From Pedobacter sp. KBW06 (lineage in GTDB: Bacteria; Bacteroidota; Bacteroidia; Sphingobacteriales; Sphingobacteriaceae), in assembly GCF_003852525.1 (NCBI RefSeq), contig NZ_QAJL01000001.1, positions 358,983-422,982 of the forward strand: a stretch of 64,000 bases of DNA, read 5' to 3'. Numbering within the stretch: the stretch's first letter is position 1; each line of letters opens with the position of its first letter. Below the pieces are notes generated by a model that saw only the letters and a program-made list of their open reading frames with translations, did no database searches and was not told the DNA's origin. The position numbers and the translations under genes are program-made. Positions 32,992 through 48,307 of the stretch are shown one piece after another.

Positions 32992-33322
32992 CTGGTATGC
33001 TATTGTTTTTCTTAGTAAATACTTCTTTTCATGGCTTAAGAAACCATCATAAGCCTGTTTTATCCTCTTTTACAGGTTACAGACTGAGACTGATTTCTTA
33101 ATCTATCACTCGCTCTTACTTGTTGGTTGATGATATAAATATGGGGGTTTTAATTTTCATATTTAAAATTACTTTAAAAGATGTCATAACTTCTATTTTT
33201 CATCAGGATTATATTTGTTTTTTAAAGGTAATGAAGCGAAGATAAGCATAGTCATTCCTGTTTGTAAGAGGTATGCTTATGATGGTTTCGGAATGGTTTC
33301 TGATCTGTATCAAGGGAGAAAG
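32992..33322. other. intergenic region between the ppk operon and ccoI
   Basis: About 330 A/T-rich bases between divergent operons. Apart from the CRP/FNR-type site that begins at 33323, I see no gene, stable hairpin, tRNA or clear TAnnTTTG promoter for the minus-strand operon. The promoter of the HD-PycTM gene must lie here but is not recognisable to me. Confidence 0.5.
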
Positions 33323-33365
33323 TGACGCTCGTCATATTTATCTATAACCGGAAGCCGGAACTTTG
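33323..33365 (+). promoter_or_regulatory. FixK/FNR-type site and -7 element of ccoI (class II geometry)
   Basis: TGACGCTCGTCA (33323-33334) is a TGA-N6-TCA box preceded by AAAG. GAACTTTG (33358-33365), one mismatch from TAnnTTTG, begins 29.5 bp from the box centre. This places the box near -41 to the start, the class II activator position, and predicts a start near 33370, 14 nt ahead of the ATG at 33384. Confidence 0.65.
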
Positions 33366-33383: not shown

Positions 33384-35783
33384 ATGTTAGCACAGAAAAC
33401 CATAGCCCAGGAAACCCAATGTTACCATTGTGGTGACGACCTCCCAAAAAGCCCTTACACGCTGGACGACAAGCCTTTTTGCTGTCTGGGATGCCAGGGT
33501 GTTTATCAGCTTTTATCGAGGCATGACCTTGGGAACTATTACGCTTACAACGATGTTCCGGGGCAAACACAAAAGAACGGAGCGCAGCATTTTGAGTACC
33601 TGGATGAAGCAGGTATTGCTGCCAATCTGCTGGATTACAGTGATGAAAAAATCAGTGTCATTACCTTATATATTCCTGCCATCCATTGCAGCTCCTGTAT
33701 CTGGCTACTGGAACATCTCCATAAAATAAAGCCCGGCATTCTTCAATCCAGGATCGATTTCCTGAAAAAGCAGGTGGTGGTCACCTATAAAAACAAGGAA
33801 TTGTCCCTGCGGCAACTTGTGGAAACCTTATCAGCCATTGGCTATGAGCCCCTGATCAGTTTACAGGATGTGGTAAAAAAGCAGAAATCTGACCATTCTG
33901 AAAGGAACCTGATCACTAAAATTGCGGTCGCGGGTTTCTGCTTTGGCAATGTCATGCTGCTTAGCTTCCCGGATTATTTCGGAATTACAAACCTGGATCA
34001 GGAGTTCAAATCTTTCTTCGGATGGATGAACCTCGCTTTTTCCATCCCTGTCGTATTTTATAGCGGGAGGGATTACTTTATCTCGGCCTGGAACAATTTA
34101 AAAAACGGCATCTTAAACCTTGATTTTCCGCTTGCTTTAGGGATTGCCGTGATGTTTATCCGCTCTATTGCAGAAATCGGGAGCAATACAGGAGCCGGTT
34201 TCGTAGATACGCTCTGCGGACTGGTATTTTTCCTGCTCGTTGGGAAATGGATGCAACAGCATACTTATCACCACCTTTCCTTTGAACGTGATTACCGTTC
34301 TTATTTCCCGGTTGCCGTTACGCTGATCGGAAAAGATGGCGAAAAACCGATTCCATTGAATGAGCTGAAGGTTGCAGACCGCATCCTGATCCGCAGCAAC
34401 GAGATCATTCCGGCAGATGCCATCTTATTAAAAGGAGATGCAGAAATGGATTTCAGCTTCGTAACAGGCGAATCCCAGCCGGTAAAAAAGGTATTGGGAG
34501 AAGTGGTGTATGCTGGCGGCCGACAACTTTCCGGCGCACTGGAACTGGAAGTCGTAAAGCCTGTTTCTCAAAGTTACCTCACCCAATTGTGGAACAATGA
34601 AGCCTTTTTTGGAGAGAAAAACCGCATCAGAACCTTTAGCGACCGGGCGAGTAAATACTTCAGCATTGTGCTGCTGAGTATTGCCATCGGCGCGGCGGCT
34701 TTCTGGATGTTTAAAGGAGATACCGGAAAAGCGGTGGCTTCCTTTACTGCGGTGCTCATTATTGCCTGCCCCTGTGCCCTGGCTTTAAGTTCTCCATTTA
34801 CACTTGCTGCCGTACTGAGCATTTTCGACAAGAATAAATTCTACCTGAAGAATACCGCCGTGATCGAAGAACTGGCCCGCATCAATACCTATGTATTTGA
34901 TAAAACAGGGACGATCACCAATCCCGATGTCAGCGGATTTACCTTTGAAGGATCTGTTACCGAAGAGGAGAAACAGCTGATCAATGACCTCGCCAGAAAC
35001 TCCGGACATCCCCTGAGCAGGGAGCTGGTCAAATGGCTGAACAGGCCTGCGAAATATACCGTTGGAAAATACATGGAAAAAGTAGGCCGCGGAATTACGG
35101 GAACGGTCAACGGCAATACCTTAAAACTGGGAAGTGCTTCCTTCCTGGGCTTAGAGATGCAACAGCCGGCAAAAGGAGCAGTCGTACATATCATTATCAA
35201 TGAGCAGTACCGGGGTTTCTTTTGTTCTGAACAACAGTGGAGGTCTGGGTTCAAAGAGCTGATTTTTAAGCTGGGTAAAGCCGCGGACCTTCACCTGCTC
35301 TCCGGTGATCAGGATCAGGACAAACAAACACTGATCCCCTTTTTCCCCCGTGCACAACAGATGCATTTTAAGCAAAGTCCGCAAAATAAGCTGGACTATA
35401 TTGTTCGGCTTCAATCCTCCGGCAGGAAAGTCTTAATGTTTGGAGACGGCCTGAATGATGCCGGAGCTTTAAAACAGAGCGATCTTGGTGTTGCGGTAAC
35501 GGACAACATCAATAACTTCTCTCCGGGTTGTGACGCCATTCTCGACGGAAGGAGCTTCTATAAGATCCCGCAATTTATTCAGCAGGCAAAAGATGCGGTA
35601 AAAGTGATTCACATGAGCTTTGCGATTTCCCTGACCTATAATGCGCTGGGCTTGTACTTTGCCGTTCAGGGCATGCTTTCTCCACTGATTGCAGCGGTGC
35701 TAATGCCGATTAGTACCGTTACGATCATTCTATTCACCAGCATTGCAGCAAGACTGTACGCGAAGAAAAACCAATTGCTATGA
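33384..35783 (+). CDS. ccoI: cbb3-oxidase copper-transporting P-type ATPase CcoI
   Basis: A 799-residue P1B ATPase that moves copper to the periplasm for cbb3 assembly. An N-terminal cysteine segment (CYHCGDDL, then CCLGCQGVY) precedes a heavy-metal-associated domain with Cys102 and Cys105 (CSSC). The transmembrane CPC motif is Cys462-Pro-Cys464 and the phosphorylated Asp506 lies in DKTGT. An in-frame TTG at 33363 exists, but the ATG at 33384 (MLAQKT) is preferred because the predicted transcription start lies between them. It overlaps ccoS by 4 bp. Confidence 0.95.
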   Translation: MLAQKTIAQETQCYHCGDDLPKSPYTLDDKPFCCLGCQGVYQLLSRHDLGNYYAYNDVPGQTQKNGAQHFEYLDEAGIAANLLDYSDEKISVITLYIPAIHCSSCIWLLEHLHKIKPGILQSRIDFLKKQVVVTYKNKELSLRQLVETLSAIGYEPLISLQDVVKKQKSDHSERNLITKIAVAGFCFGNVMLLSFPDYFGITNLDQEFKSFFGWMNLAFSIPVVFYSGRDYFISAWNNLKNGILNLDFPLALGIAVMFIRSIAEIGSNTGAGFVDTLCGLVFFLLVGKWMQQHTYHHLSFERDYRSYFPVAVTLIGKDGEKPIPLNELKVADRILIRSNEIIPADAILLKGDAEMDFSFVTGESQPVKKVLGEVVYAGGRQLSGALELEVVKPVSQSYLTQLWNNEAFFGEKNRIRTFSDRASKYFSIVLLSIAIGAAAFWMFKGDTGKAVASFTAVLIIACPCALALSSPFTLAAVLSIFDKNKFYLKNTAVIEELARINTYVFDKTGTITNPDVSGFTFEGSVTEEEKQLINDLARNSGHPLSRELVKWLNRPAKYTVGKYMEKVGRGITGTVNGNTLKLGSASFLGLEMQQPAKGAVVHIIINEQYRGFFCSEQQWRSGFKELIFKLGKAADLHLLSGDQDQDKQTLIPFFPRAQQMHFKQSPQNKLDYIVRLQSSGRKVLMFGDGLNDAGALKQSDLGVAVTDNINNFSPGCDAILDGRSFYKIPQFIQQAKDAVKVIHMSFAISLTYNALGLYFAVQGMLSPLIAAVLMPISTVTIILFTSIAARLYAKKNQLL

Positions 35784-35965
35784 ACATCATTTACTTTCTG
35801 ATCGGATGCAGCATCCTGCTTGCACTGATCTTCCTGCTGGCCTTTTTCTGGGCCAGCCGAACGGGGCAGAACGATGATACCTATACCCCTTCGGTGCGCA
35901 TCCTGTTCGATGATGAGGTCCAGCCTGTAAAGGAGGACATAAAAAGTGACGAAGATCACACTTAG
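35780..35965 (+). CDS. ccoS: cbb3-type oxidase assembly protein CcoS
   Basis: A 61-residue single-pass membrane protein (helix about 4-25, FLLAFFWASRTGQNDD after it) needed in other bacteria for copper and heme insertion into cbb3 oxidase. The short acidic C-terminus (VRILFDDEVQ) is typical. It overlaps ccoI by ATGA. Its last codons contain the CRP/FNR-type box that controls ccoN, so the coding and regulatory sequences overlap. Confidence 0.93.
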   Translation: MNIIYFLIGCSILLALIFLLAFFWASRTGQNDDTYTPSVRILFDDEVQPVKEDIKSDEDHT

Positions 35966-36011
35966 TGGAAATCCCTGTCATTCTATAGTCACACACACCG
36001 CCCTAATTTTA
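35947..36011 (+). promoter_or_regulatory. FixK/FNR-type site and -7 element of the ccoN operon (class I geometry)
   Basis: TGACGAAGATCA (35947-35958) is a TGA-N6-TCA box with the left flank AAAAAG. TAATTTTA (36004-36011), close to TAnnTTTG, starts 51.5 bp from the box centre, giving a box position near -62 and a leader of about 27 nt to the ATG at 36043. The hemN-operon promoter has the same box sequence at the same distance. Confidence 0.7.
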
Positions 36012-36042: not shown

Positions 36043-38154
36043 ATGACTGATAAATTTTACTACGACAACAAAATCGTCAGGAACTTCGCAGTTGCCACCA
36101 TCGTCTGGGGCATCATCGGAATGACGGTCGGATTGCTCATCGCCATGCAGCTCTTCAAGCCTGCATTAAACATGGGCTCCCAGTACACGACTTTCGGCCG
36201 GATCAGGCCATTACACACCAATGCGGTGATCTTTGCTTTTGTGGGTAACGCCATTTTTATGGGCGTTTATTACTCCCTGCAGCGACTCCTTAAAGCGAGG
36301 ATGTTCAGTGATGTACTCAGTAAAATACACTTCTGGGGATGGCAGCTGATCATTGTCTCGGCGGTGATTACCCTTCCATTAGGATTCACTTCCTCCCACG
36401 AATACGCAGAGCTGGAATGGCCGATAGATATTGCCATTACGCTGATCTGGGTCGTCTTTGGGGTCAATATGTTTGGTACGATTATCAAAAGGAGAGAAAA
36501 ACACATGTATGTGGCCATCTGGTTTTACATCGCCACATTTGTCACAGTTGCGGTATTGCACATCGTGAACTCTTTCCAGCTTCCGGTATCTGCTTTTAAA
36601 AGTTACTATTTATATGCAGGGGTTCAGGATGCACTGGTGCAATGGTGGTATGGCCACAATGCGGTTGCTTTCTTCCTGACCACCCCTTACCTGGGAATGA
36701 TGTATTATTTCCTTCCAAAAATGGCCCAGCGCCCGGTATACTCTTATAAACTGAGTATCCTTCACTTCTGGTCATTGATCTTCATCTATATCTGGGCTGG
36801 CCCACACCATTTATTATATACGTCTTTACCAAGCTGGGCCCAATCGTTGGGTGTTGCGTTCTCGATCATGCTGATTGCACCGAGCTGGGGTGGTATGATC
36901 AACGGACTGCTGACCCTGCGCGGTGCATGGGACAGGGTAAGAGAAGATTCCAGGCTTAAATTTATGGTGGTCGGCATTACCGCTTATGGTATGGCCACCT
37001 TTGAAGGACCGATGCTTGCCTTAAAACAAATCAATGCGATTGCCCACTATACCGACTGGATAGTAGCACACGTACACGTAGGTGCCTTAGGCTGGAATGG
37101 TTTCTTAACCTTCGGAATTTTATACTGGTTGATCCCCCGCATTTACAGAACGGAATTATACTCTAAAAAACTGGTTTCCTTCCACTTCTGGATTGGCACA
37201 CTGGGAATTATATTTTATGCAGTGCCTTTATATTTCGCCGGTTTCACACAAGGTCTGATGTGGAAAGAATTCAACGCCGATGGAATGCTCAGGTATCCAA
37301 ACTTCCTGGAAACGATCATACAGATCCTTCCGATGTATGTATTGAGAGCGATCGGTGGTGCTTTATACCTTGCCGGTGTGATCGTGATGACATACAACCT
37401 GATCAGAACGGTTCGTCTCGGAAAACTGGTTGCCAATGAGCCTGCTGAAGCAATGCCACTGGCGAAAGATTATGTTCCTCAGGGATCTGAGAAAAAATTA
37501 CACCGGGTGCTGGAACGTAAACCAATGGTATTCATGGTGCTTTCCTTAGTGGTGATCCTGATTGGTGGAATGATCGAAATGATGCCCACCTTTACGATCA
37601 AATCTAATATCCCTACCATTGCCAGCGTGCAGCCTTATACTCCTCTGGAGTTACAGGGACGTGATTTATACATCCGTGAAGGTTGTGTGAGCTGTCACTC
37701 TCAAATGATCCGTCCTTTCCGTTCAGAAACAGAAAGATATGGAGAATACAGTAAAGCAGGAGAGTTTGTATACGACCATCCACATTTATGGGGATCCAAA
37801 AGAACCGGACCAGATTTACAGCGTGAAGGTGGCAAATATGGCAATGTATGGCATTACAACCACATGCTGGACCCACAGACCATGTCGCCGGGAAGTATCA
37901 TGCCTCCTTACGAATGGCTGATTACCCAAAAACTCGACACGACGACAACCATCAGCAAGATCAATGCGATGCGCAGTCTGGGTGTTCCTTACGAAGAGGG
38001 TTATGAGCATACGGCCAACAGCGACCTGGACATTCAGGCCAAAGCCATTGCGGCAGACCTTCAGAAGAACAACATCAAAGTGAAAAGTGATAAAGAAATC
38101 GTTGCGCTGATTGCCTATCTGCAACGTTTGGGAACGGATATTAAAGCAAAGTAA
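36043..38154 (+). CDS. ccoNO: cbb3-type cytochrome c oxidase, fused subunits I and II (CcoNO)
   Basis: A 703-residue fusion. Residues 1-480 form CcoN with about 12 to 14 membrane helices and the heme/CuB histidines (LHTNAVIF near 51, WWYGHNAVAFF near 200, WAGPHHLLYTSLP near 247, VHVGALGWNG near 345). Residues about 495-703 are CcoO, a membrane-anchored mono-heme cytochrome c with CVSCH at 548-552. The N-O fusion is characteristic of Bacteroidota. The enzyme reduces oxygen to water with high affinity while pumping protons. Transcription probably starts at its own FNR-type promoter. Confidence 0.97.
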   Translation: MTDKFYYDNKIVRNFAVATIVWGIIGMTVGLLIAMQLFKPALNMGSQYTTFGRIRPLHTNAVIFAFVGNAIFMGVYYSLQRLLKARMFSDVLSKIHFWGWQLIIVSAVITLPLGFTSSHEYAELEWPIDIAITLIWVVFGVNMFGTIIKRREKHMYVAIWFYIATFVTVAVLHIVNSFQLPVSAFKSYYLYAGVQDALVQWWYGHNAVAFFLTTPYLGMMYYFLPKMAQRPVYSYKLSILHFWSLIFIYIWAGPHHLLYTSLPSWAQSLGVAFSIMLIAPSWGGMINGLLTLRGAWDRVREDSRLKFMVVGITAYGMATFEGPMLALKQINAIAHYTDWIVAHVHVGALGWNGFLTFGILYWLIPRIYRTELYSKKLVSFHFWIGTLGIIFYAVPLYFAGFTQGLMWKEFNADGMLRYPNFLETIIQILPMYVLRAIGGALYLAGVIVMTYNLIRTVRLGKLVANEPAEAMPLAKDYVPQGSEKKLHRVLERKPMVFMVLSLVVILIGGMIEMMPTFTIKSNIPTIASVQPYTPLELQGRDLYIREGCVSCHSQMIRPFRSETERYGEYSKAGEFVYDHPHLWGSKRTGPDLQREGGKYGNVWHYNHMLDPQTMSPGSIMPPYEWLITQKLDTTTTISKINAMRSLGVPYEEGYEHTANSDLDIQAKAIAADLQKNNIKVKSDKEIVALIAYLQRLGTDIKAK

Positions 38155-38172
38155 AATCTAAACAACAACACC

Positions 38173-38337
38173 ATGTTTAAGCAATTTTTAAATCAAGTAG
38201 ATGGAAGCCAGGTGTATTTACTCACTTCTCTGGGGATTTTCATGCTCTTTTTCTTACTGGTCGGCATTCTCCTGCTGACCATGAAAAAAGACGAAATAAA
38301 ATATATGAGTGAATTACCTTTAAAAGACGACGAGTAA
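38173..38337 (+). CDS. ccoQ: cbb3 oxidase small subunit CcoQ-like
   Basis: A 54-residue protein (MFKQFLNQVDGS start) with one membrane helix at about residues 16-37 and a short charged tail (MKKDEIKYMSEL). Position between ccoNO and ccoP and size identify it as the CcoQ-type stabilising subunit. The stop TAA overlaps the ATG of ccoP by one base (TAATG). It starts 18 bp after the ccoNO stop. Confidence 0.85.
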   Translation: MFKQFLNQVDGSQVYLLTSLGIFMLFFLLVGILLLTMKKDEIKYMSELPLKDDE

Positions 38338-39131
38338 TGACAGATCTACTTATCTGGGCCCTGCTATTTGTTGCAGCGCTCATCCTTATCGTTTCCTTAC
38401 AGGTATTGAAGGTCATCAAAATCTTTATTAAGGAAAGCATCAGCCCTTCCCCATTTGCAACTGAAGAAGAGAAAGAACAATTCCGCTTACTGGCCGCAAA
38501 GCGTGAGGCGGAGGAAAAAGCAAAACCTTCCATCTGGACCAAACTCATGGGCTTAAAACCTATGGCAGAGGAGAAAGACCTGATGATGGACCATGAATTT
38601 GACGGCATCGCGGAGCTGGACAACCCTACCCCGGCCTGGTTTAGCGTACTGTTTTACGGAACCATCATTTTCGCCATCGGATATATGCTCAATTATCATG
38701 TCTTCAACTGGGGAAAATCACAGGAAGAAGAATATGCGATCGAACTCCAGCAGGCCGCAGACGACCGCCTTGCCTTTCTTCAGAAACCAGGTGCCGCAGG
38801 CCCTCAGATCAATGAAAGCAATATCGAACAAAGCAATGATAAAGAGGTGATCCAAAAAGGAGCTGCCTTATTTAAAACCGTTTGTACGCCTTGTCACGGG
38901 GCAAATGGAGAAGGCGGCGTTGGCCCCAACCTGACCGATGAATTCTGGCTGCACGGCGGAGGCGTAAAAGACGTGTTCAAAACGATCAAATATGGTGTTC
39001 CTGAGAAAGGAATGGTAGCCTGGGAGAAATCCATGAATGCCAAACAAATCTCAGACATCACCAATTATGTATTGTCATTAAAAGGAAGTAATCCTGCAGG
39101 CGCGAAAGCACCACAGGGCAAAAAAGATTAA
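38337..39131 (+). CDS. ccoP: cbb3 oxidase cytochrome c subunit CcoP (single heme motif)
   Basis: A 264-residue membrane-anchored cytochrome c: a first helix at residues 2-24, a second near 101-120 (VLFYGTIIFAIGYML) and a soluble cytochrome domain with CTPCH at Cys183/Cys186/His187. Proteobacterial CcoP carries two heme motifs; only one CxxCH is present here, as in other Bacteroidota as far as I recall. It passes electrons to CcoO. It is coupled to ccoQ and lies 1 bp ahead of ccoG. Confidence 0.93.
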   Translation: MTDLLIWALLFVAALILIVSLQVLKVIKIFIKESISPSPFATEEEKEQFRLLAAKREAEEKAKPSIWTKLMGLKPMAEEKDLMMDHEFDGIAELDNPTPAWFSVLFYGTIIFAIGYMLNYHVFNWGKSQEEEYAIELQQAADDRLAFLQKPGAAGPQINESNIEQSNDKEVIQKGAALFKTVCTPCHGANGEGGVGPNLTDEFWLHGGGVKDVFKTIKYGVPEKGMVAWEKSMNAKQISDITNYVLSLKGSNPAGAKAPQGKKD

Positions 39132-39132
39132 T

Positions 39133-40533
39133 ATGTCGTCGCAAAGTCCCGGACAATTCAGAGATCAGATCTCCACCCTTACCGATGATGGTAAAAGCCG
39201 TAAGTGGCTTTATCCTCATGTGATCAAGGGGAAATTATATCAATACCGCTCCATCGTCAGTTATTTTTTCCTGACATTACTATTTGCTGCCCCATTTCTT
39301 AAGTTAAATGGGGAGCAATTGGTCCTTTTAAATGTACTGGAACGGAAGTTTGTATTCTTTGGTGTCATCTTCTGGCCTCAGGACTTCTACCTCTTCGTAT
39401 TGGCTTTGCTGATTTTCATTGTATTCATCGTACTGTTTACCGTCGTCTTTGGACGGGTATTTTGCGGATGGGCCTGCCCGCAGACGATCTTTCTGGAAAT
39501 GATTTTCCGGAAGATAGAGATCTGGATTGAGGGCGACCACCATAAACGTAAAAAACTGGATGATGGTCCTTTGACCGGACAAAAGGTCTTTAAAAAAGGG
39601 TTAAAACATGGGATCTACCTGGCAATTTCTTTTCTGATTGCCAACATCTTCCTCTCCTACCTGATCGGTTCTTCTGTGCTGATCAGCATCATGACGGAAC
39701 CGGTATCCATGCATCTAAGCGGCTTTATCGCCATCTGCGTATTTACCATCGTGTTTTACCTGGTATTTTCCAGAATGCGGGAACTGGTGTGTACCGTGGT
39801 TTGCCCTTATGGCCGTCTGCAAGGCGTATTACTGGACAACCAGAGCATCATCGTTGCTTATGATTATGAACGCGGGGAACCTCGCGGGAAGCGCGTTAAA
39901 GAAGCAGAAAACCAAATCGGCGACTGTATCGACTGCAAACTTTGCGTACAGGTCTGCCCTACCGGAATCGACATCAGGAATGGTACTCAGCTGGAATGCG
40001 TGAACTGTACGGCCTGTATCGATGCCTGTGATATGGTGATGGAAAAAATCAGCCGCCCAACACGCCTGATCGGGTTTAAATCTGATGATGAGATCAAGTT
40101 CAAACAGGGTTTCCATCTCAATAAAAGGGTGTATGCCTATACCGGGGTACTGCTGGTTTTAATGGCGGTCCTGAGCTACCTTTTAATCGTGAGAAGTGAG
40201 GTCAAAACCACGATTTTACGTGCAGGGGGCACGCTTTATCAGATGCGGGAGAAAGAAAAGGAAGTCAGCAATCTATACAATGCAGAGCTGATCAATAAAA
40301 CTAATAAATCATTGAAGTTTGAGATCATTCCGGATGATCCGTCCACCAAAATTCAGTATATCCAGAAACAGGATTCCATCGCCTATGGCGGTGTGGCAAA
40401 GCTGACTTTCTTTGTGATCATGCCTCAATCGGCTTTGAAGAAATACAAGTCAGACATCGGTTTCAAACTGATATCGGATGGAAAGGTCCTGGATAGATTT
40501 GAAACTACATTTATAGCACCAATAAACGATTAA
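39133..40533 (+). CDS. ccoG: cbb3 accessory iron-sulfur protein CcoG (FixG/RdxA)
   Basis: A 466-residue membrane protein with about five helices, the NosR/FixG-like motif CGWACPQT near residue 114, and two ferredoxin-type clusters: CIDCKLCVQVCPTGID near 260 and CVNCTACIDACDMVM near 288. A periplasmic immunoglobulin-like domain follows the last helix. CcoG is thought to reduce copper for cbb3 assembly. It starts 1 bp after ccoP. Confidence 0.95.
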   Translation: MSSQSPGQFRDQISTLTDDGKSRKWLYPHVIKGKLYQYRSIVSYFFLTLLFAAPFLKLNGEQLVLLNVLERKFVFFGVIFWPQDFYLFVLALLIFIVFIVLFTVVFGRVFCGWACPQTIFLEMIFRKIEIWIEGDHHKRKKLDDGPLTGQKVFKKGLKHGIYLAISFLIANIFLSYLIGSSVLISIMTEPVSMHLSGFIAICVFTIVFYLVFSRMRELVCTVVCPYGRLQGVLLDNQSIIVAYDYERGEPRGKRVKEAENQIGDCIDCKLCVQVCPTGIDIRNGTQLECVNCTACIDACDMVMEKISRPTRLIGFKSDDEIKFKQGFHLNKRVYAYTGVLLVLMAVLSYLLIVRSEVKTTILRAGGTLYQMREKEKEVSNLYNAELINKTNKSLKFEIIPDDPSTKIQYIQKQDSIAYGGVAKLTFFVIMPQSALKKYKSDIGFKLISDGKVLDRFETTFIAPIND

Positions 40534-40537
40534 GCAT

Positions 40538-40969
40538 ATGGAATGGAACTGGGGAACAAAATTAGTGATGGGTATGGTCTCGTTTATGACCTTCATTGTC
40601 GTACTGGCAGTGATGATGTTTAACAGCAAACCTGATGCCCTTGTAGATAATGATTATTATGAGAAAGGGCTCAATTACAATGCAGATTATAACCTGAAAG
40701 AACAGGTGAAGGCAGACCATGCCGCACCGGAGATCCTTGTTTTACCCGGAGAAATCCTGCTTAAGTTTAAAGCTGCCGCTGAGGGAAAAGTAAAAATCGT
40801 CCGCCCATCGGATAAACGCATGGACAAGGTGGTTAATTTCAAAACAGATGCAGCATACAGATCGGCCATCCCTTCGAAAGAAATTGCCAAAGGAAGATGG
40901 AAACTGATCATTACATGGAATAGTGCAGGTAAATCCTATTTGGATGAGCAGGAGGTCATGGTAAAATGA
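40538..40969 (+). CDS. ccoH: cbb3 accessory protein CcoH (FixH)
   Basis: A 143-residue protein with one N-terminal membrane helix (about 8-28), the conserved DNDYYEKGLNYN block near 38 and a periplasmic beta-rich domain. It matches FixH/CcoH, required for stability of CcoI and the oxidase. The stop overlaps the ATG of the next gene (ATGA), so it is co-translated with the SafE-like protein. Confidence 0.92.
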   Translation: MEWNWGTKLVMGMVSFMTFIVVLAVMMFNSKPDALVDNDYYEKGLNYNADYNLKEQVKADHAAPEILVLPGEILLKFKAAAEGKVKIVRPSDKRMDKVVNFKTDAAYRSAIPSKEIAKGRWKLIITWNSAGKSYLDEQEVMVK

Positions 40970-41685: not shown

Positions 41686-42072
41686 ATGAAAAATATGAGA
41701 GATATAAAAGACAGCAATGACATCCGCTTACTGGTAGATGCTTTCTATAGCAATGCACTGATTGATCCGGTGATCGGTCCGGTATTTAAAGCGGCAGATT
41801 TTTCTTTGGAAAGACACATTCCGGTGATGGTTACTTTCTGGGAAACGATCTTATTGGATGTGGTGACCTATAAAGGAAATCCAATGTTAAAGCACATTGC
41901 CTTAAGTAAAGAAGTGCCCCTGCATCCGGAACATTTTGATCAATGGATGAAAATATGGACAGCGACCATCAACGCTAATTTTGAAGGGCCGGTAGCAGAA
42001 AATGCCATTTCCAGGGCCTCTTCTATCGGTCAGCTGATGCAATATAAGATCAAACAAAGCAGCTCGCTTTAA
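41686..42072 (+). CDS. group III truncated hemoglobin
   Basis: A 128-residue globin with the compact helical pattern of group III truncated hemoglobins: LVDAFYSNALIDPVIGPVF near 15, FWETILLDVVTYKGNP near 54, and the proximal-histidine region HPEHFDQWMKIW near 78. These proteins bind oxygen or nitric oxide and are linked to microaerobic or nitrosative conditions. An alternative ATG at 41695 (MRDIKDS) would shorten it by three residues. The terminator arms begin inside its last codons. Confidence 0.92.
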   Translation: MKNMRDIKDSNDIRLLVDAFYSNALIDPVIGPVFKAADFSLERHIPVMVTFWETILLDVVTYKGNPMLKHIALSKEVPLHPEHFDQWMKIWTATINANFEGPVAENAISRASSIGQLMQYKIKQSSSL

Positions 42073-42221: not shown

Positions 42222-43580
42222 TTATCCGGTAAGACTAAACAGCTGTGTGGTAGGCTGATTGGCCCACAATCTCGCATCCAGCGCCATACAGATATTCCTT
42301 AAAAATCTTTTACCCAGGGGAGTTACCCTCAGGTTCTCCTCCGACAATAAGACAAGGCCGTCCAATGCCAGCCAGCGCATGCGCTTTAATCCTTCGTTCA
42401 ATGCGGCAGACTGCTCTTCAGTCCGGCTCCAGGAAGTATATCCCCTGCACATGATGTTTAAGATATGTTTACGGATCATCAGGTCTTCCTCTGTCAGTAA
42501 ATGTCCTTTAAATACGGGCAGTTCTCCTTCATTTACGATCCTGATGTAATCCTCTACTTTTTTTACGTTTTGGGCAAAGGCAGACCAGGTATCACTGATC
42601 GATGAAACTCCCAATCCGACCATTAAACGACTGTATTGATGGGTGTACCCCATAAAGTTCCGGTGCAGGTTTCCTTTGATCTCCGCGCCGTATAAACTGT
42701 CTGTAGCCAGTGTAAAATGGTCCATACCAACATCGATATAACCTCCGTCTTTTAGTTTTTTACGGCCCAGTTCATAGAGTTCCTGCTTCATTTTTGGAGA
42801 AGGCAGATCGGCTTCTGTATAACGTCTTTGCCCGGGTTTTACCCAGGGCACATGCGCATAACTGTAAAAAGCGATGCGGTCTGGTCTTAATTTCAAAACT
42901 GCATCGAGGGTATCGGACAAACCTGCCGGATTTTGTTTAGGCAAGCCATAAATAAGGTCGTAATTGATCGAGGTATATCCCGATTCCCTGGCTTTAAGGG
43001 TCACCTCTTCTACCTGTTCATAGCTTTGAATCCTGTTGATGATCAGTTGTACTGTAGGATCAAAATCCTGAATTCCCAGACTCAGCCTTCTGAATCCAAG
43101 TCTGTTCAAAGTGCTCAGATGTTCCGGATTGGTATTTCCGGGATGGGCTTCAAAACTAAATTCTGCATCCTCATGGAGGTCTGCATATTGCAGGATCCCT
43201 TCAATCAGAACCTGTAGGTTTTCGGCACTGAAGAATGTTGGTGTACCGCCCCCCAGGTGTAATTCTTTGATTTTTGGCCTGCTGACAAACAGATTCAGGT
43301 ACAATTGCCATTCTTTCAGAACAGCTGCGATATAAGGCTCTTCCACCTGATGGTTCTTTGTGATCCTGGTATTGCAACCGCAATAAGTACAGAGACTTTC
43401 ACAAAAAGGAAGGTGGATGTATACGCTGATTCCGTCTGAATCATTGCTTTCTTTAAAAGATTGTGCTGCAGCCTGAGCCCATTTTTCCGCATTAAAATCA
43501 GTCAGGTCCCAGTAAGGAACGGTAGGATAACTGGTATAGCGTGGTGCAGCAACATGGTATTTTGAAACGATGCTGTCCAT
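42222..43580 (-). CDS. hemN: oxygen-independent coproporphyrinogen III oxidase HemN
   Basis: A 452-residue radical-SAM enzyme that converts coproporphyrinogen III to protoporphyrinogen IX without oxygen. CESLCTYCGC near residue 56 is the CX3CX2C cluster motif with the extra HemN cysteine, and GGGTPTF near 109 follows. The start is the ATG at 43580 (MDSIVSKYHVAAPRYTSYP), the conserved N-terminus; the longer open frame to 43769 runs through the previous gene and is not credible. It lies 1 bp behind the D-lactate-dehydrogenase-like gene and shares its FNR-type promoter. Confidence 0.95.
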   Translation of the reverse strand: MDSIVSKYHVAAPRYTSYPTVPYWDLTDFNAEKWAQAAAQSFKESNDSDGISVYIHLPFCESLCTYCGCNTRITKNHQVEEPYIAAVLKEWQLYLNLFVSRPKIKELHLGGGTPTFFSAENLQVLIEGILQYADLHEDAEFSFEAHPGNTNPEHLSTLNRLGFRRLSLGIQDFDPTVQLIINRIQSYEQVEEVTLKARESGYTSINYDLIYGLPKQNPAGLSDTLDAVLKLRPDRIAFYSYAHVPWVKPGQRRYTEADLPSPKMKQELYELGRKKLKDGGYIDVGMDHFTLATDSLYGAEIKGNLHRNFMGYTHQYSRLMVGLGVSSISDTWSAFAQNVKKVEDYIRIVNEGELPVFKGHLLTEEDLMIRKHILNIMCRGYTSWSRTEEQSAALNEGLKRMRWLALDGLVLLSEENLRVTPLGKRFLRNICMALDARLWANQPTTQLFSLTG

Positions 43581-43581
43581 A

Positions 43582-44055
43582 TTAATGCTGATGAGGTTGT
43601 CCTTTGATGTGCACCTTGCTTCCTGCCTGATCACATGATCTTGAACAGACACAGGCATCGCCGAGGCAACGGTTTTGCTGCCAGTTGTCCAGGTTGATGA
43701 TGGTTTCAGTGGCCAGGGCCATTGGCAGCTCCCTCTCGCTGAGGCCGGATAAGGAAGCCAATGGAACATTGGCGATCTTAAGGCTTCTTAAAGCAGCGGC
43801 TTCGGTATCAATATGTGTGGTATCCGTAGAGCGTGTGGCAATAAATTTCACCCCAAGGTCGGCCAGCTTATTGATCACCAGGGCAGAAACATTGTCCTCT
43901 TCGTTGAAAACAATTACCGCCTCTTTACCTTCGGCATAAGAAACTGTTTCCAGGCCCAGCGAATTGGAAATCAGCGTGATCTCATGTTTTTTATTGTTGG
44001 CAATGGCCAGCGGTTCTTTTTCAAAAGATTTTATACTATATGCGACAACTCTCAT
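43582..44055 (-). CDS. truncated D-lactate-dehydrogenase-like protein with cysteine tail
   Basis: A 157-residue protein. Residues 1-125 align by eye with the first substrate-binding lobe of D-lactate dehydrogenase: MRVVAYSIKSFEKEPL, then VKFIATRSTDTTHID (69-83) and PLASLSGLSERELPMAL (98-114), in place of the usual VRVPAYDPEAVAEHA. The Rossmann NAD-binding domain is missing altogether. A short tail carries Cys130, Cys135, Cys137 and Cys141 (CX4CXCX3C) and then a His-rich end. It is not simply a decayed gene: it is intact, directly ahead of hemN, and has a well-formed promoter. The function is unknown; a metal- or cluster-binding regulator is possible. Confidence 0.7.
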   Translation of the reverse strand: MRVVAYSIKSFEKEPLAIANNKKHEITLISNSLGLETVSYAEGKEAVIVFNEEDNVSALVINKLADLGVKFIATRSTDTTHIDTEAAALRSLKIANVPLASLSGLSERELPMALATETIINLDNWQQNRCLGDACVCSRSCDQAGSKVHIKGQPHQH

Positions 44056-44076: not shown

Positions 44077-44141
44077 CAAAGTTAGCATGAAGGCATGGCG
44101 GGGAGAATGAGTTCGGTCAGCCGAAAAAGTGATCTTCGTCA
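44077..44141 (-). promoter_or_regulatory. FixK/FNR-type site and -7 element of the hemN operon (class I geometry)
   Basis: On the minus strand TGACGAAGATCA (44141 to 44130) is followed, 51.5 bp from its centre, by TAACTTTG (44084 to 44077), a perfect TAnnTTTG box. The box sits near -62 and the leader is about 17 nt. Its first TGA is also the stop codon of the regulator gene at 44139. Confidence 0.75.
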
Positions 44142-45197
44142 GTTTTTCATTTGCTGCAGCCGGATCTGGTCAAGGATAACGATCTGGCTTCCTTTCCTTT
44201 CAATAATCCCTTCATCTTTGAAGTCACTGAGGATCCGGCTTACCGTTTCTGTGGCCATTCCTGCCATTGCAGCAAGGTTATCCCTGGAAATGCGCAGGGT
44301 TAGCTCAGGCCCTTCCTGCTCCTGTTTACAAAGCCTGGCCAATACTTCCGCCATGCGCTTTCTAACAGAATGATAGGCCAGCTGCAGCAATTGTTCTTCT
44401 TTTTCCTGAAGGTTATTGGAGAGGATCTCTATAAACTGTCTGGCTACATCCGGATAACGGTGGAGCAAATCTTCCATTAAGTCCTTTGGCAGCATGCAAA
44501 CAGTACTGTCTTCCATCGCCTCTGCCGTTTCTGTGTATGGGGCATTGAGCAATAAGGAAGTGATCCCAAAGTATTCTTCATGGCCATACATCCCGGTTAA
44601 CAATTCCCTTCCGTCTTCGCTCAGCTTGAAGGTTTTCACTTTTCCCTGCATCACAAGATAAACGCCGGAAACATTGTCTCCTTCGTAATAAACGATCTGT
44701 TTTTTCTTAATCGCCCTGACTTTACGTGCAGCAATGATTTTCTCCAGCTCCTGCAAACCAGAAGTATTGCTGAACAGCGCGCTGAGTTTTTCCAGCGACT
44801 GGCTATAGAAATGTTGTTGTTTTTCTTTTTTGCTGAGCCTGCTTTCTATTGCATTCATCAGTTCTACATCATCAAAAGGTTTGGTGAGGTAATCATCAGC
44901 GCCCATTTCCATGCCTTTACGCATGTCCAGACGTTCCGCTTTTGCGGTCAGAAAGATAAAAGGGGTAGCGGCAGTATTTTCATTTTTATTGAGCAAATAC
45001 AATACGCCATAGCCATCCAGCTCGGGCATCATGATGTCACATAAGATCAGGTCCGGCAGGTGCGTTCCCGCCAGTTCAACGCCTATCCTGCCATTGCTGG
45101 CCTGCAATACTTCATAATTGGCAAGCTCCAGAATTTCGGCAGTGCTTTCCCGGATGTCGTCGTTATCTTCTATAATGAGTATCTGTATCTTCTTCAT
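44139..45197 (-). CDS. response regulator with CRP/FNR DNA-binding output (FixJ-FixK-like fusion)
   Basis: A 352-residue regulator. Residues 3-120 are a receiver with Asp11/Asp12, phospho-acceptor Asp54 (CDIMMPE) and Lys106. Residues 155-245 form a cyclic-nucleotide-binding-type beta roll, and 275-345 a CRP-type winged helix with recognition segment TETVSRIL (Glu317, Ser320, Arg321), expected to read TGA half-sites. The N-terminal cysteine cluster of FNR is absent, so oxygen information probably comes from the heme-PAS kinase encoded 19 bp upstream in the same operon. Probable targets are the four TGA-N6-TCA promoters in this window. Confidence 0.92.
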   Translation of the reverse strand: MKKIQILIIEDNDDIRESTAEILELANYEVLQASNGRIGVELAGTHLPDLILCDIMMPELDGYGVLYLLNKNENTAATPFIFLTAKAERLDMRKGMEMGADDYLTKPFDDVELMNAIESRLSKKEKQQHFYSQSLEKLSALFSNTSGLQELEKIIAARKVRAIKKKQIVYYEGDNVSGVYLVMQGKVKTFKLSEDGRELLTGMYGHEEYFGITSLLLNAPYTETAEAMEDSTVCMLPKDLMEDLLHRYPDVARQFIEILSNNLQEKEEQLLQLAYHSVRKRMAEVLARLCKQEQEGPELTLRISRDNLAAMAGMATETVSRILSDFKDEGIIERKGSQIVILDQIRLQQMKN

Positions 45198-45216
45198 TTG
45201 TGTTTATTCGTAATTG

Positions 45217-46401
45217 TTATTTATGGAAGGACAGGACAAATTTAGTCCCGGTATGAATGCTGCTTTCAAAGTATAAATCTCCCTTCATTAGGGAGGCATA
45301 ACGGTGAACAATGTTTAAGCCCAGACCTGTTCCGGGGATGTTACCGGTATTGTGCGCACGGAAAAAGGGTTGAAATAAATACTTATGGTCTGATTCCGGA
45401 ATCCCGATCCCATTGTCTTTGATGGTCACCACACATTGCTGGTCGTTGATTTCCGTGTTGAATTCTATGAAGGTATTTTCTCCTGAATATTTGATGGCAT
45501 TGGAGATCAGGTTGATCATACAGTTTTTCAGGAGGTTTGGATCAAGCAAGACCATACTTTGCAGTCCGGTATGCTGGTAAATGATGTTCTGGTCCTGCTT
45601 GGCGATCATCTGCATCTCTTCTGTAATCTCTTCCGAAAGTTTCACGAGGTCAAATGCAGTAAATGTCGGCTCTACCCTTCCTGCTTCCAGACGTTCCAGA
45701 GACAGGAAATCATTCAGAATGGTAGTTAAGTTTCCTACCGCATTTTTGATTTTACTGACATGCTTTCTGATATTGGTATTGTCATAAGGTTCCGCGTACT
45801 TATCGATCAGAGAGGCTGAAAGTTGTACGGAGCTCAGCGGTGTCCTGAATTCATGAGAAGCCATAGAAACAAACCTGCTTTTCAATTGATTGAGTTCTTT
45901 CTCTTTTTCTAAAGAAAGGCTCACTTCTTCTTTTGCCTCACTCAATGCCTGTACGGTTTTCTTGAGCGATTTTGTCCGTTCTTCTACCAGTTCTTCCAGC
46001 TCCGCAGCATATTCGCGCAATCGTTCTTCGGCTTCTTTCTCCCTGGAGAGGTCATGTATAAATCCGGTATAGATGATCCGGTCATCATACTGAACCTCAC
46101 TTACGGCGAGTCTGAAAGGAAAAGTAGAACCATCTTTTCTTAGTCCTTTTACTTCTCTTCCCTTGCCGATGATGCGTTTTTCTCCGGTGGTCTGGTATCT
46201 GGAAATATAGCCGTCATGCCCGCTTCTGTCTGGTTCAGGCATCAGAACGGAAATATTTTTTCCTTCCACCTCTTCCAGCGAATAACCAAATAACCGCAAT
46301 GCTGCCGGATTAAGGCTCTCTATCCTGCCCCGGTTATCAATGGTAATGATCCCATCAATCGCCGTTTCAATGATCGCCTTAAGTAACCTCGCCTTTTCCA
46401 T
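45217..46401 (-). CDS. FixL-like PAS-sensor histidine kinase
   Basis: A 394-residue kinase. Residues 5-120 are a PAS domain strikingly like heme-binding FixL: LMPEPDRSGHDGYISRY (53-69) with His62 at the heme-ligand position, then IIGKGREV (77-84) with Arg82 at the place of the oxygen-sensing arginine. A coiled coil (about 120-170) leads to the phospho-acceptor His183 (ASHEFRTPLS), N box NLISNAIKYSG, and G boxes DNGIGI and GTGLGL. No membrane helices are present, so it senses a cytoplasmic signal, most likely oxygen. Its partner is the receiver-CRP protein downstream. Confidence 0.93.
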   Translation of the reverse strand: MEKARLLKAIIETAIDGIITIDNRGRIESLNPAALRLFGYSLEEVEGKNISVLMPEPDRSGHDGYISRYQTTGEKRIIGKGREVKGLRKDGSTFPFRLAVSEVQYDDRIIYTGFIHDLSREKEAEERLREYAAELEELVEERTKSLKKTVQALSEAKEEVSLSLEKEKELNQLKSRFVSMASHEFRTPLSSVQLSASLIDKYAEPYDNTNIRKHVSKIKNAVGNLTTILNDFLSLERLEAGRVEPTFTAFDLVKLSEEITEEMQMIAKQDQNIIYQHTGLQSMVLLDPNLLKNCMINLISNAIKYSGENTFIEFNTEINDQQCVVTIKDNGIGIPESDHKYLFQPFFRAHNTGNIPGTGLGLNIVHRYASLMKGDLYFESSIHTGTKFVLSFHK

Positions 46402-46414
46402 GTTTTACTTTTTA

Positions 46415-46422
46415 CAAATATA
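46415..46422 (-). promoter_or_regulatory. -7 element of the kinase-regulator operon
   Basis: TATATTTG on the minus strand is a perfect TAnnTTTG box, giving a very short leader to the ATG at 46401. The shared TGA-N6-TCA site at 46469-46480 is centred 52.5 bp away, close to the class I distance, so the operon may regulate itself. Confidence 0.6.
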
Positions 46423-46468
46423 GTCAATACGATTGCAGGAGGCAGATAACCTAAATCATGCAAAAGTG

Positions 46469-46511
46469 TGACTAATATCATGTTTTTAAAATTAAATAGT
46501 CTGTTCTTTTG
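46469..46511 (+). promoter_or_regulatory. FixK/FNR-type site and -7 element of the gene at 46538 (class II geometry)
   Basis: TGACTAATATCA (46469-46480) with an AAAAGTG flank, then TTCTTTTG (46504-46511), one mismatch from TAnnTTTG, 29.5 bp from the box centre. This is exactly the spacing seen at ccoI. The predicted start lies about 22 nt ahead of the ATG. Confidence 0.65.
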
Positions 46512-46537: not shown

Positions 46538-48307
46538 ATGAACCATACTTTTCACATCCCCGTACTAGGCTTAGGCTATTCCATTGACACTCCTTTAAAA
46601 GTAGCCAGATACGGCATCTCTTCCGTTGTCTCCATTGTGGATGATGAACTGACGGAGCGCATGAGGAAGTACCATCAGGAAAATACAACAAAAGGATATA
46701 CCTTAATTGAGAAAAAAGAGGAAGACAGCAGGGCGAGGAGGATTACCGCCTACCTGAACCTTTTGGACATACTCGTTAAGGAGCAGTTCAAAACATTGAA
46801 AACACAAACCTTTGAGGAAGGAACCGAGCTGTCCCGGTATTTTGAGCTTTTGCCGGATACTGCTCCGATAAAACAAAAGTATATGCAAATGAAGGCTTTA
46901 GAAGCGGGAATATCCAGAGATACTCTTCAAAAAGAACTGCTGGCCTCCATGACTCCGGGAGCCATAGATGTCAACATCATGTCTAAAGTTGATAAAGCCA
47001 ATTATAAGGCCAATCAGGAATATGCCGGTGATGATTTCACCGATGCCCTGGCCGCTATGCGTGGTTTTGCCAATAGTACACTGGATTCCTCAGTGATCAT
47101 TTCCGCAGGTTTAAACCCCAGGCTATATGCTTACATGGAAAAATGCACTGCGTTTTTTCCAGATGCCGGAGGGAAACTTCAAAAGAAAATCATCCTTAAA
47201 GTGAGCGACTTCCGATCGGCCCTGATCCAGGCAAAGATGCTGGCTAAAAAAGGCTTATGGGTCTCCGAATTTAGGGTAGAATCGGGTTTGAACTGCGGAG
47301 GCCATGCCTTTGCTACGGAAGGCTTCCTGTTGGGACCTATCCTGGAAGAATTCAAACAAAAGCGTACCGAACTTGCGGAAGAACTCTATCAGATGTACAG
47401 TGCAGCCCTGATCGGCAAAGGCCTTCCGGAAATGGCAAAACCAATCCAGCGCATTACTGCCCAGGGAGGAATCGGCACCGCCGAAGAGCATGAGTTCCTG
47501 CTCAACTATTATCAGCTGGATGCGGCGGGTTGGGGAAGTCCGTTTTTACTGGTTCCCGAAGCGACAAATGTAGATGAAGAAACTTTGAACGATCTGGTTA
47601 CCGCAAGGGCGGATGATTATTACCTGAGCAACTCTTCCCCATTGGGCGTACTTTTCAATAATTTCAAAAAAAGTACCGCAGAGCAACAGAGACTGCAGCG
47701 CATAGAGAAAGGGCGGCCGGGAAGCCCATGCACGAAGAAATTTCTATGTACCAATACCGAATTCACGGAGCTGCCCATCTGTACGGCATCAAGAGAATAT
47801 CAAAACCTAAAGATAAAACAACTGAAAGACCAGCAGCTGCCCAAGGAAGATTACGACAAACAGTTTGATTCCATTACAGAGAAAGTATGCCTGTGTGAAG
47901 GTTTATGTGCTTCGACCTACATTAAGGCCGGGATATTAAAACCAAGGGAAAACAGGGCAGTGAGCATTTGTCCGGGTCCAAATCTGGCTTTCTTTCATGC
48001 CAAATATTCCCTTAAAGAGATGATCAATCACATTTATGGAAGAGAGAATTTGCTTTCAGAGGTCCTGCGTCCCAACCTGTTCATCAATGAACTCAACTTA
48101 TATGTGGACTATCTGAAGAAAGACATCGCCGCCCAGCTGGAGGAATTTAATGCTAAAAAAGACAAATATTTCAGCAAGTTTAAAGCGCAGTTACTGAATG
48201 GGATCGATTATTACAAAGCGCTCATTCCTGAATTAAAATTCCAGGATAGCTTGTCTGTAGAGGAAATGCTCAAACAACTCCAGCTCGCAGAGCAACGCTT
48301 AAGCTAG
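46538..48307 (+). CDS. cysteine-rich protein of unknown function, possible TIM-barrel flavoprotein
   Basis: A 589-residue cytoplasmic protein that I recognise only as a conserved Bacteroidota hypothetical. Residues 8-30 (LGLGYSIDTPLKVARYGI) and 244-262 (FRVESGLNCGGHAFATEGF) read like beta-alpha units. QGGIGTAEEHEFL (309-321) resembles a phosphate-binding loop of a nitronate-monooxygenase- or DHOD-like barrel. The C-terminal third has Cys398, Cys404, Cys415, Cys451, Cys453, Cys457 and Cys478, enough for an iron-sulfur cluster. It is divergent from the oxygen-sensing kinase and has a class II FNR-type promoter. The fold and cofactor are inference. Confidence 0.75.
   Translation: MNHTFHIPVLGLGYSIDTPLKVARYGISSVVSIVDDELTERMRKYHQENTTKGYTLIEKKEEDSRARRITAYLNLLDILVKEQFKTLKTQTFEEGTELSRYFELLPDTAPIKQKYMQMKALEAGISRDTLQKELLASMTPGAIDVNIMSKVDKANYKANQEYAGDDFTDALAAMRGFANSTLDSSVIISAGLNPRLYAYMEKCTAFFPDAGGKLQKKIILKVSDFRSALIQAKMLAKKGLWVSEFRVESGLNCGGHAFATEGFLLGPILEEFKQKRTELAEELYQMYSAALIGKGLPEMAKPIQRITAQGGIGTAEEHEFLLNYYQLDAAGWGSPFLLVPEATNVDEETLNDLVTARADDYYLSNSSPLGVLFNNFKKSTAEQQRLQRIEKGRPGSPCTKKFLCTNTEFTELPICTASREYQNLKIKQLKDQQLPKEDYDKQFDSITEKVCLCEGLCASTYIKAGILKPRENRAVSICPGPNLAFFHAKYSLKEMINHIYGRENLLSEVLRPNLFINELNLYVDYLKKDIAAQLEEFNAKKDKYFSKFKAQLLNGIDYYKALIPELKFQDSLSVEEMLKQLQLAEQRLS

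Follow-up and report, generated by a model that had tools for sequence, protein, structure and literature searches.

A FixL-type heme-PAS kinase and a receiver-CRP/FNR fusion regulator as a predicted two-protein oxygen switch at tandem-box promoters of Bacteroidota

A stretch of 64,000 nucleotides from Pedobacter sp. KBW06 (contig NZ_QAJL01000001.1, positions 358,983 to 422,982; in the following, the window is this whole stretch) contains the gene of a sensor histidine kinase and, next to it, the gene of a response regulator with a CRP/FNR-type output. We consider it likely that the two proteins form a two-component oxygen switch, in which a heme kinase would act directly on a receiver-FNR/FixK-type activator of sigma-A promoters. 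FixL, FixJ, FixK and the three-protein hFixL-FxkR pathway are known already; no account of the two-protein pairing or of the promoter pattern described below was found in the literature searched, and the system would be a variant of the known ones. The two genes and their domains are the following.

45217..46401, minus strand: sensor histidine kinase, 394 amino acids (list of open reading frames, Pfam)
46051..46383, minus strand: FixL-type PAS domain of the kinase, residues 7-117, with His62, Arg68 and Arg82 (Pfam, alignment)
44139..45197, minus strand: response regulator, 352 amino acids, receiver fused to a CRP/FNR output (list of open reading frames, Pfam)
44847..45185, minus strand: receiver domain, residues 5-117, with the phospho-acceptor Asp54 (Pfam, alignment)
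44154..44720, minus strand: cNMP-binding fold (residues 160-247) and Crp-type helix-turn-helix (residues 280-348), recognition helix ETVSR (Pfam, alignment)

The kinase consists of a single PAS domain (Pfam, residues 7-117), a HisKA domain (174-241) with the H-box SHEFRTPL and His183, and a HATPase domain (287-392). The solved structures that matched the PAS domain best were FixL heme domains (1dp6, E 1.7e-34; 8js5, E 5.1e-34; 1d06, E 4.7e-33), and identical residues were found at 60 of 124 positions in comparison with Bradyrhizobium FixL and at 60 of 112 positions in comparison with Sinorhizobium FixL. An earlier note, made from the letters of the window, had claimed a FixL heme-PAS signature with His62 and Arg82. 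This claim held, as His62, Arg68 and Arg82 were aligned with the heme residues of the solved FixL domains, within a PAS domain about 50% identical to that of FixL. Two PDB chains with alanine at the positions of Arg68 and Arg82 yielded the same alignment register. At the sequence level, the kinase has the axial histidine and the distal arginine of heme-PAS proteins, and among the other PAS matches of the genome that were aligned (L011, L012) none had histidine and arginine at the heme positions. The note had also proposed structural modelling of the PAS domain, and the predicted kinase structure was superposed on FixL 8js5 at 1.8 Å over 134 columns with 46% identity; the mean pLDDT (predicted local distance difference test) of the model was 79.6, and it was 58-66 near the pocket loop. 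The curated FixL model NF041777 gave 175.5 bits on the whole kinase, below its cut-off of 850 (among the best 25 of 89 NCBIfam families). A close likeness to FixL is confined to the sensor domain of the kinase.

The regulator had been described as a receiver with Asp54 fused to a CRP/FNR output without the FNR cysteines, and Pfam domains, active site and cysteine positions all agreed with this description. The Pfam matches were Response_reg (5-117), cNMP_binding (160-247) and HTH_Crp_2 (280-348). The active site residues E10, D11, D54, T84 and K106 did not vary among the 30 homologues aligned, and hence the acidic pair, the phospho-accepting aspartate, the threonine/serine and the lysine of two-component response regulators are all present. 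The output, a cNMP-binding fold followed by a Crp-type helix-turn-helix, places the protein in the CRP/FNR superfamily and differs from the LuxR/GerE-type helix-turn-helix of FixJ. Cysteines occur only at positions 53, 234 and 290, so that the N-terminal cluster of iron-sulfur FNR proteins is missing. Their absence is shared with FixK, but FixK is a stand-alone CRP/FNR protein, whereas the regulator carries an N-terminal receiver and reached 90.8 bits with the FixK model NF050806 (cut-off 300); with the FNR model NF008365 it reached 100.1 bits (cut-off 228; both among the best 25 of 108 NCBIfam families). A fold search with the regulator retrieved CRP/FNR-type chains only among the best 50 matches listed, and no solved structure matching both the receiver and the CRP half was found in the best 60 of 346 sequence matches. 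Because the structural model of the regulator had low inter-domain confidence (predicted template modelling score 0.42; residues 134-144 under 50), no receiver geometry is claimed.

Pairs of TGA-N6-TCA boxes were found in front of the kinase-regulator operon itself, of the cbb3 oxidase genes and of the unit containing hemN. The four paired regions of the window belong to five transcription units.

33301..33365, plus strand: ccoI promoter; boxes 33301-33312 and 33323-33334, 22 bp apart, TTTG at 33362-33365, 27 nt after box 2
35947..36011, plus strand: ccoNO promoter; box 35947-35958, degenerate box 35969-35980, TAATTTTA ending at 36011
44077..44141, minus strand: promoter of the hemN unit; boxes 44141-44130 and 44119-44108, TAACTTTG ending at 44077
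46415..46511, divergent: promoter of the kinase-regulator operon (minus) and of a 589-residue protein gene (plus); boxes 46480-46469 and 46458-46447, with one mismatch

At the divergent promoter, the -7 elements are TATATTTG ending at 46415 on the minus strand, at 28 nt, and TTTG at 46508-46511 on the plus strand, at 27 nt. The first ccoNO box overlaps the 3' end of a CcoS-like open reading frame, and the leaders predicted for the window promoters are 9 to 27 nt long. The earlier note had spoken of four boxes, giving no coordinates for them; four paired regions were recovered, of which two contain one degenerate box. Its TGA-N6-TCA sites stood insofar as they are conserved at the cco, hemN and own promoters and occur as pairs above chance. 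Single boxes in the window, in contrast, did not exceed chance (25 sites versus 21.5 expected, a number reached by 22 of 100 shuffles), and the raw box count was dropped as evidence. The perfect FNR consensus TTGAY-N4-RTCAA did not occur in the window, and the genome contained 46 such sites versus 31 in the reversed control. The boxes would act as pairs with a spacing of 22 bp, and the distance between pair and -7 element is fixed.

This geometry was evident from a comparison of relatives. The 300 bp upstream of gene starts were compared in named relatives (80 loci retained from 585), and the promoters were grouped, by reading, according to whether the regulator has the recognition helix E..SR, which is that of FNR, or another one, mostly E..IR. 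In the E..SR group, 45 kinase promoters contained 63 boxes, with at least one box in 33, while nine control patterns gave 3-9 sites. Upstream of the gene that opens the hemN unit, 72 boxes were counted, and 37 of 42 promoters had at least one (controls, 0 to 10). Boxes preceded ccoNO in 14 of 15 cases in this group and in 9 of 10 in the other group, in which they were also present at 8 of 8 ccoI promoters and at 19 of 27 kinase promoters. Centre-to-centre distances of 22 bp were counted 24 times at kinase, 26 times at hemN-unit, seven times at ccoI and six times at ccoNO promoters. A distance of 23 bp was seen three and five times, and each remaining value up to 60 bp at most twice.

The distance to the -7 element was equally regular. 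The 23-bp pairs (three and five) were excluded from this analysis, no duplicate needed removal, and in 38 of the resulting 63 pairs the interval between the second box and the start of TTTG was exactly 27 nt. It was 26 nt in four, and any other offset occurred at most twice; the extended form TAnnTTTG stood at 27 nt in 27 pairs. For single boxes, TTTG was present in 33 of 97 cases where it would be expected if a degenerate box lay 22 bp downstream (27 or 28 nt). The tandem sites of the family search, one per genome, gave a similar picture: TTTG or TTTA followed at 26-28 nt in 20 of 28 (random positions, 9.5%), namely in 14 of 21 sites not adjoining the regulator gene and in 6 of 7 adjoining it. 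This check covered 28 of 30 loci, as L177 and L179 near contig ends were left out, and it includes the close relatives L173-L176. According to excerpts of two papers, TAnnTTTG is the Bacteroidota -7 element, situated at -12 to -5 on the start-site map of Flavobacterium psychrophilum (PMC9723704), and its consensus is also given in PMC7366714. With the box pair fixed 27 nt from TTTG, the boxes would thus be centred near about -63.5 and -41.5, a prediction that takes over the -7 position mapped in another organism, a flavobacterium. Position -41.5 is the one usually occupied by class II activators.

Genome-wide, five perfect tandem sites were found versus one for the reversed control; two of the five lie within the window, and all five have TTTG or TTTA at 27 nt. 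Up to one mismatch, there were 37 sites versus 9 in the control. When the -7 element was included and up to two mismatches were allowed, 19 forward and 12 reverse matches were obtained (control, 4 and 2), and for 21 of these 31 the gene neighbourhoods were inspected. The intergenic matches in the window precede ccoI, ccoNO, the hemN unit and the gene of the 589-residue protein. Elsewhere, intergenic matches precede three Usp genes, two YceI genes (one of them second in its unit), OmpW, a PTPS gene followed by COX15/CtaA, an MCRA-family gene and an acetyl-CoA hydrolase gene; two-mismatch matches (L234, L247, L248, L250) precede further genes, and four matches inside reading frames are probably noise. 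OmpW is described as part of the E. coli FNR regulon in an excerpt of PMC4886647. An excerpt of PMC9723704 reports that oxygen limitation raises the cbb3 oxidase and heme-synthesis enzymes in F. psychrophilum, which, by analogy, would be consistent with activation at low oxygen. Together, the predicted targets make up a coherent putative regulon, one that fits low-oxygen respiration.

The earlier note had suggested a search for the same fusion across Bacteroidota. With thresholds of E<=1e-40 for the regulator and E<=1e-70 for the kinase, the regulator was present in 86 of 121 family genomes and in 59 of 395 phylum genomes; in three of the latter (G388, G392, G396) the match covered the receiver only. 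The kinase was present in 42 of the 395, and all 42 also had the regulator; in 36 of these pairs the two genes were within 107 bp, in one they were 257 bp apart and in five 8.9-16.7 kb. The kinase-regulator pair is thus widespread in the class of the window's organism and no peculiarity of this genome. Perfect tandem boxes numbered 273 in the family genomes versus 9 in the control (control summed by hand), 238 of them in the 86 regulator-bearing genomes and 35 in the other 35. In the phylum genomes they numbered 396 versus 37 (control again summed by hand), to which the 59 genomes carrying the regulator contributed 227 (3.85 each) and the 336 lacking it 169 (0.50 each). At least one perfect pair was found in 47 of 59 genomes with the regulator and in 105 of 336 without it (Fisher p 4e-12, uncorrected for the kinship between genomes).

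Several side observations were made in this search. Two genomes, G501 and G014, contained 29 and 18 perfect tandem pairs, which suggests an enlarged regulon, and G014 had three kinase matches. Several genomes of genus g80 (family f18) had 1-3 perfect tandem sites and neither the fusion regulator nor a match of the type of L006, a stand-alone FNR-like protein discussed below. One regulator was found on a contig (L118) labelled as a Bifidobacterium breve metagenome assembly, which is probably a mislabelled or contaminated bin.

The following mechanism is proposed. Heme would be held in the FixL-type PAS domain of the kinase, with His62 as axial ligand and Arg82 touching oxygen, and the oxygen-bound kinase would be switched off. 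Upon a drop in oxygen, the deoxy-heme kinase would autophosphorylate at His183, and the phosphate would move to Asp54 on its partner. In this phosphorylated form, the regulator would bind a pair of TGA-N6-TCA boxes spaced by 22 bp, with centres near -63.5 and -41.5, and would directly activate sigma-A promoters. Its targets would be the genes of the cbb3 oxidase, hemN, stress genes and the kinase-regulator operon. Heme binding, the oxygen signal and its sign, phosphotransfer, binding of the boxes by the regulator, and activation rather than repression are what we infer from the analogy with FixL and FNR.

The sensor domains of the relatives were not uniform. Each distinct PAS sequence entered the count once, PAS copies within one kinase were scored individually, and nine loci (L017, L055, L071, L094, L099, L103, L104, L118, L130) contributed no PAS match. 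At loci with E..SR regulators, histidine and arginine were kept in 74 of 78 distinct PAS sequences, whereas at loci with other helices 22 of 45 had both residues. In 21 of the 27 named loci with other helices, the PAS domain was 28-40% identical to that of the window and the transmitter 44-53%. The remaining six had a FixL-type PAS domain (58-66%), which in four cases belonged to a different kinase than the best transmitter match. Part of the kinase family, to judge from its diverged PAS sequences, may not be oxygen sensors of the FixL kind, and the diverged PAS domains at the other-helix loci may reflect faster divergence rather than replacement of the sensor. At L131, L136, L137 and L139, a kinase with a FixL-type PAS domain lies about 2 kb from a second kinase adjoining the regulator, possibly as two sensors of one regulator.

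Several findings weigh against the proposed switch. On the sensor side, the heme histidine is lost in L049, L098 and L108 despite an E..SR partner, and the arginine in L067; 23 of the 45 PAS sequences at other-helix loci lack the histidine-arginine pair, and the promoter pattern is shared by the regulators with other helices (mostly E..IR), most of which are accompanied by a strongly diverged PAS domain. On the side of occurrence, 17 of the 59 regulator genomes had no kinase match at the threshold used, 12 of the 59 had no perfect box pair, and the 169 pairs in the phylum genomes lacking the regulator were still in excess over the control (33, summed by hand). Furthermore, the genomes are related, so that the counts are not independent. 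At the promoters, 12 of 45 E..SR-group kinase promoters had no box within 300 bp, only one of the six testable ccoI promoters of this group, that of the window itself, had boxes, and at the hemN unit the TGA of the first box doubles as the stop codon of the regulator, a half-site that is partly explained by coding. Finally, L006 is another FNR-like protein of the genome, one of 33 with a cNMP-binding match, and the regulator may share the boxes with such a protein. The kinases of L049, L098 and L108 are natural candidates for heme-free variants.

In a different explanation, the main reader of the box pairs would be another CRP/FNR protein, for instance the stand-alone, 240-residue L006, and the kinase-regulator pair would be only one of the targets. 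Matches of the L006 type were found in 59 of 395 genomes; to judge from their coordinates, four or more of these are the fusion regulator. Among genomes lacking the fusion, those with an L006-type match had more tandem sites (1.24 versus 0.41 per genome), and a two-mismatch site (L248) lies upstream of L006, though directed away from it. However, when the fusion was present, the number of pairs was the same whether an L006-type match was present or absent (3.76 and 3.89 per genome, respectively; 4.0 and 3.8 after the four self-matches had been moved by hand), and a box stands in front of the kinase in 52 of 72 cases (33 of 45 and 19 of 27), which makes this explanation improbable. Equally unlikely, in our estimation, is that the two-component architecture is right and that the PAS domain senses another signal (nitric oxide, carbon monoxide, redox or another ligand) or contains no heme. 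It would fit the diverged PAS domains of related kinases with the same promoter pattern and the three kinases that have lost the histidine next to an E..SR partner, and the MPxP...H motif also exists in PAS domains for which no heme binding is known. The approximately 50% identity of the PAS domain to FixL, the conservation of histidine and arginine in 74 of 78 sequences and the suitability of the predicted targets for low-oxygen respiration argue against it, as does the co-occurrence of the same boxes with FNR-like N-terminal-cysteine proteins in some genomes without the regulator.

Another idea concerns the spacing and would add to the heme kinase-regulator switch rather than exclude it: the 22 bp could be set by receiver-receiver contacts of adjacent regulator dimers. 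The spacing is near-invariant at these promoters, and receivers commonly dimerise on phosphorylation. Yet receivers seem to be unnecessary for the spacing, because the loci L253 and L254, which encode FNR-like proteins without a receiver, carry 22-bp pairs as well, and we regard such contacts as a doubtful, if somewhat less remote, explanation.

Some genomes without the fusion regulator have retained the boxes and encode stand-alone, cysteine-bearing FNR-like proteins, as though the sensor had been exchanged. At L253, in a genome without the fusion, an FNR-like protein with the N-terminal cysteines CQSC...C is encoded beside ccoI and ccoNO; one box pair precedes ccoNO and has TTTG/A at 27 nt, and a second one lies after the FNR-like gene and has no TTTG/A there. 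In a sample of 40 L006-type proteins from 39 genomes (one also with the fusion), the motif C-x2-C-x4-10-C was present in seven, all from genomes with tandem boxes. Eight of the 33 proteins lacking the motif came from genomes with tandem boxes, and many of the 33 still have C-x2-C. The cysteine-bearing proteins would, judging by this motif, bind an iron-sulfur cluster. It is quite conceivable, and we put it forward tentatively, that Bacteroidota have one low-oxygen promoter code with pairs at about -63.5/-41.5, the readers of which were swapped between heme kinase plus fusion, kinases with other PAS domains, and cysteine-bearing FNR-like proteins.

The neighbouring genes of the window are listed below. 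The earlier note had named homologues of the classic FixK targets fixNOQP/GHIS and hemN, and these were retrieved: a CcoN-CcoO fusion, CcoP, CcoG, CcoH, a CcoI-type P-ATPase and HemN, together with CcoQ- and CcoS-like open reading frames named by eye.

33384..35783, plus strand: ccoI-type cation-transporting P-ATPase, predicted target
35780-35965: CcoS-like open reading frame, named by eye
36043..38154, plus strand: ccoNO, fused cbb3 oxidase subunits I/II, predicted target
38173-38337: CcoQ-like open reading frame, 54 amino acids, named by eye
38337..40969, plus strand: ccoP, ccoG and ccoH
42222..43580, minus strand: hemN, oxygen-independent coproporphyrinogen III oxidase, predicted target (TIGR00538, 422.5 bits, cut-off 325)
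43582..44055, minus strand: 157-residue protein, encoded at the start of the hemN unit; of a D-2-hydroxyacid dehydrogenase domain it has only the N-terminal part
46538..48307, plus strand: 589-residue protein, predicted target via the divergent promoter

The 157-residue protein (43582-44055) has a cysteine-rich tail and is situated between regulator and hemN, as in many relatives. The 589-residue protein has cysteine-rich stretches and no Pfam or NCBIfam match, and it was seen by eye near the kinase-regulator pair in 18 of 80 named loci. A 128-residue protein (41686-42072, plus strand) had no Pfam match at E 0.05; we take it to resemble a truncated globin.

The system shares features with several known ones. 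The FixL-FixJ-FixK cascade of Rhizobiales and Caulobacter likewise has a FixL-type heme-PAS kinase, an FNR-type end regulator that lacks iron-sulfur cysteines, and cco and hemN targets (compared with its features in an excerpt of PMC4999443). Here, in contrast, there are two proteins instead of three, a FixJ-type output is lacking and the receiver is fused to the FNR-type half, and paired boxes would be placed at about -63.5/-41.5 of sigma-A promoters. The H-box SHEFRTPL also differs from that of rhizobial FixL. The hFixL-FxkR-FixK pathway of Rhizobium etli and R. leguminosarum, similar in its FixL-type input and its FNR-type regulator at the end, comprises three proteins according to excerpts of PMC4999443 and PMC7888657, whereas the link between kinase and regulator would be direct here. 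With FNR, ANR and FnrN, the regulator has in common the output fold, the E..SR helix, the TGA-N6-TCA site and the hemN, cco and ompW targets, but it has no N-terminal cysteine cluster, and its input is a phosphorylation receiver. The Bacteroidota FNR-like N-terminal-cysteine proteins (L253, L254) share the 22-bp tandem boxes and, in L253, the adjoining ccoI and ccoNO; unlike the fusion regulator, they are stand-alone and receiver-less, and their cysteines suggest direct sensing. A literature search by title and abstract start, in which few subscription journals were covered, retrieved neither a FixL-type kinase with a receiver-CRP/FNR fusion nor such a promoter pattern, and no paper on FixL together with Pedobacter was found in the literature searched. 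Receiver-CRP fusions are likely mentioned in reviews of response-regulator outputs.

If the proposed switch is true, many Bacteroidota would adjust their high-affinity respiration to oxygen through a two-protein path from heme to DNA, shorter than that of the rhizobia. The promoter pattern is precise enough for the prediction of low-oxygen regulons in many genomes, and the apparent exchange of inputs on one promoter code would allow a change of sensor with kept targets to be tested directly.

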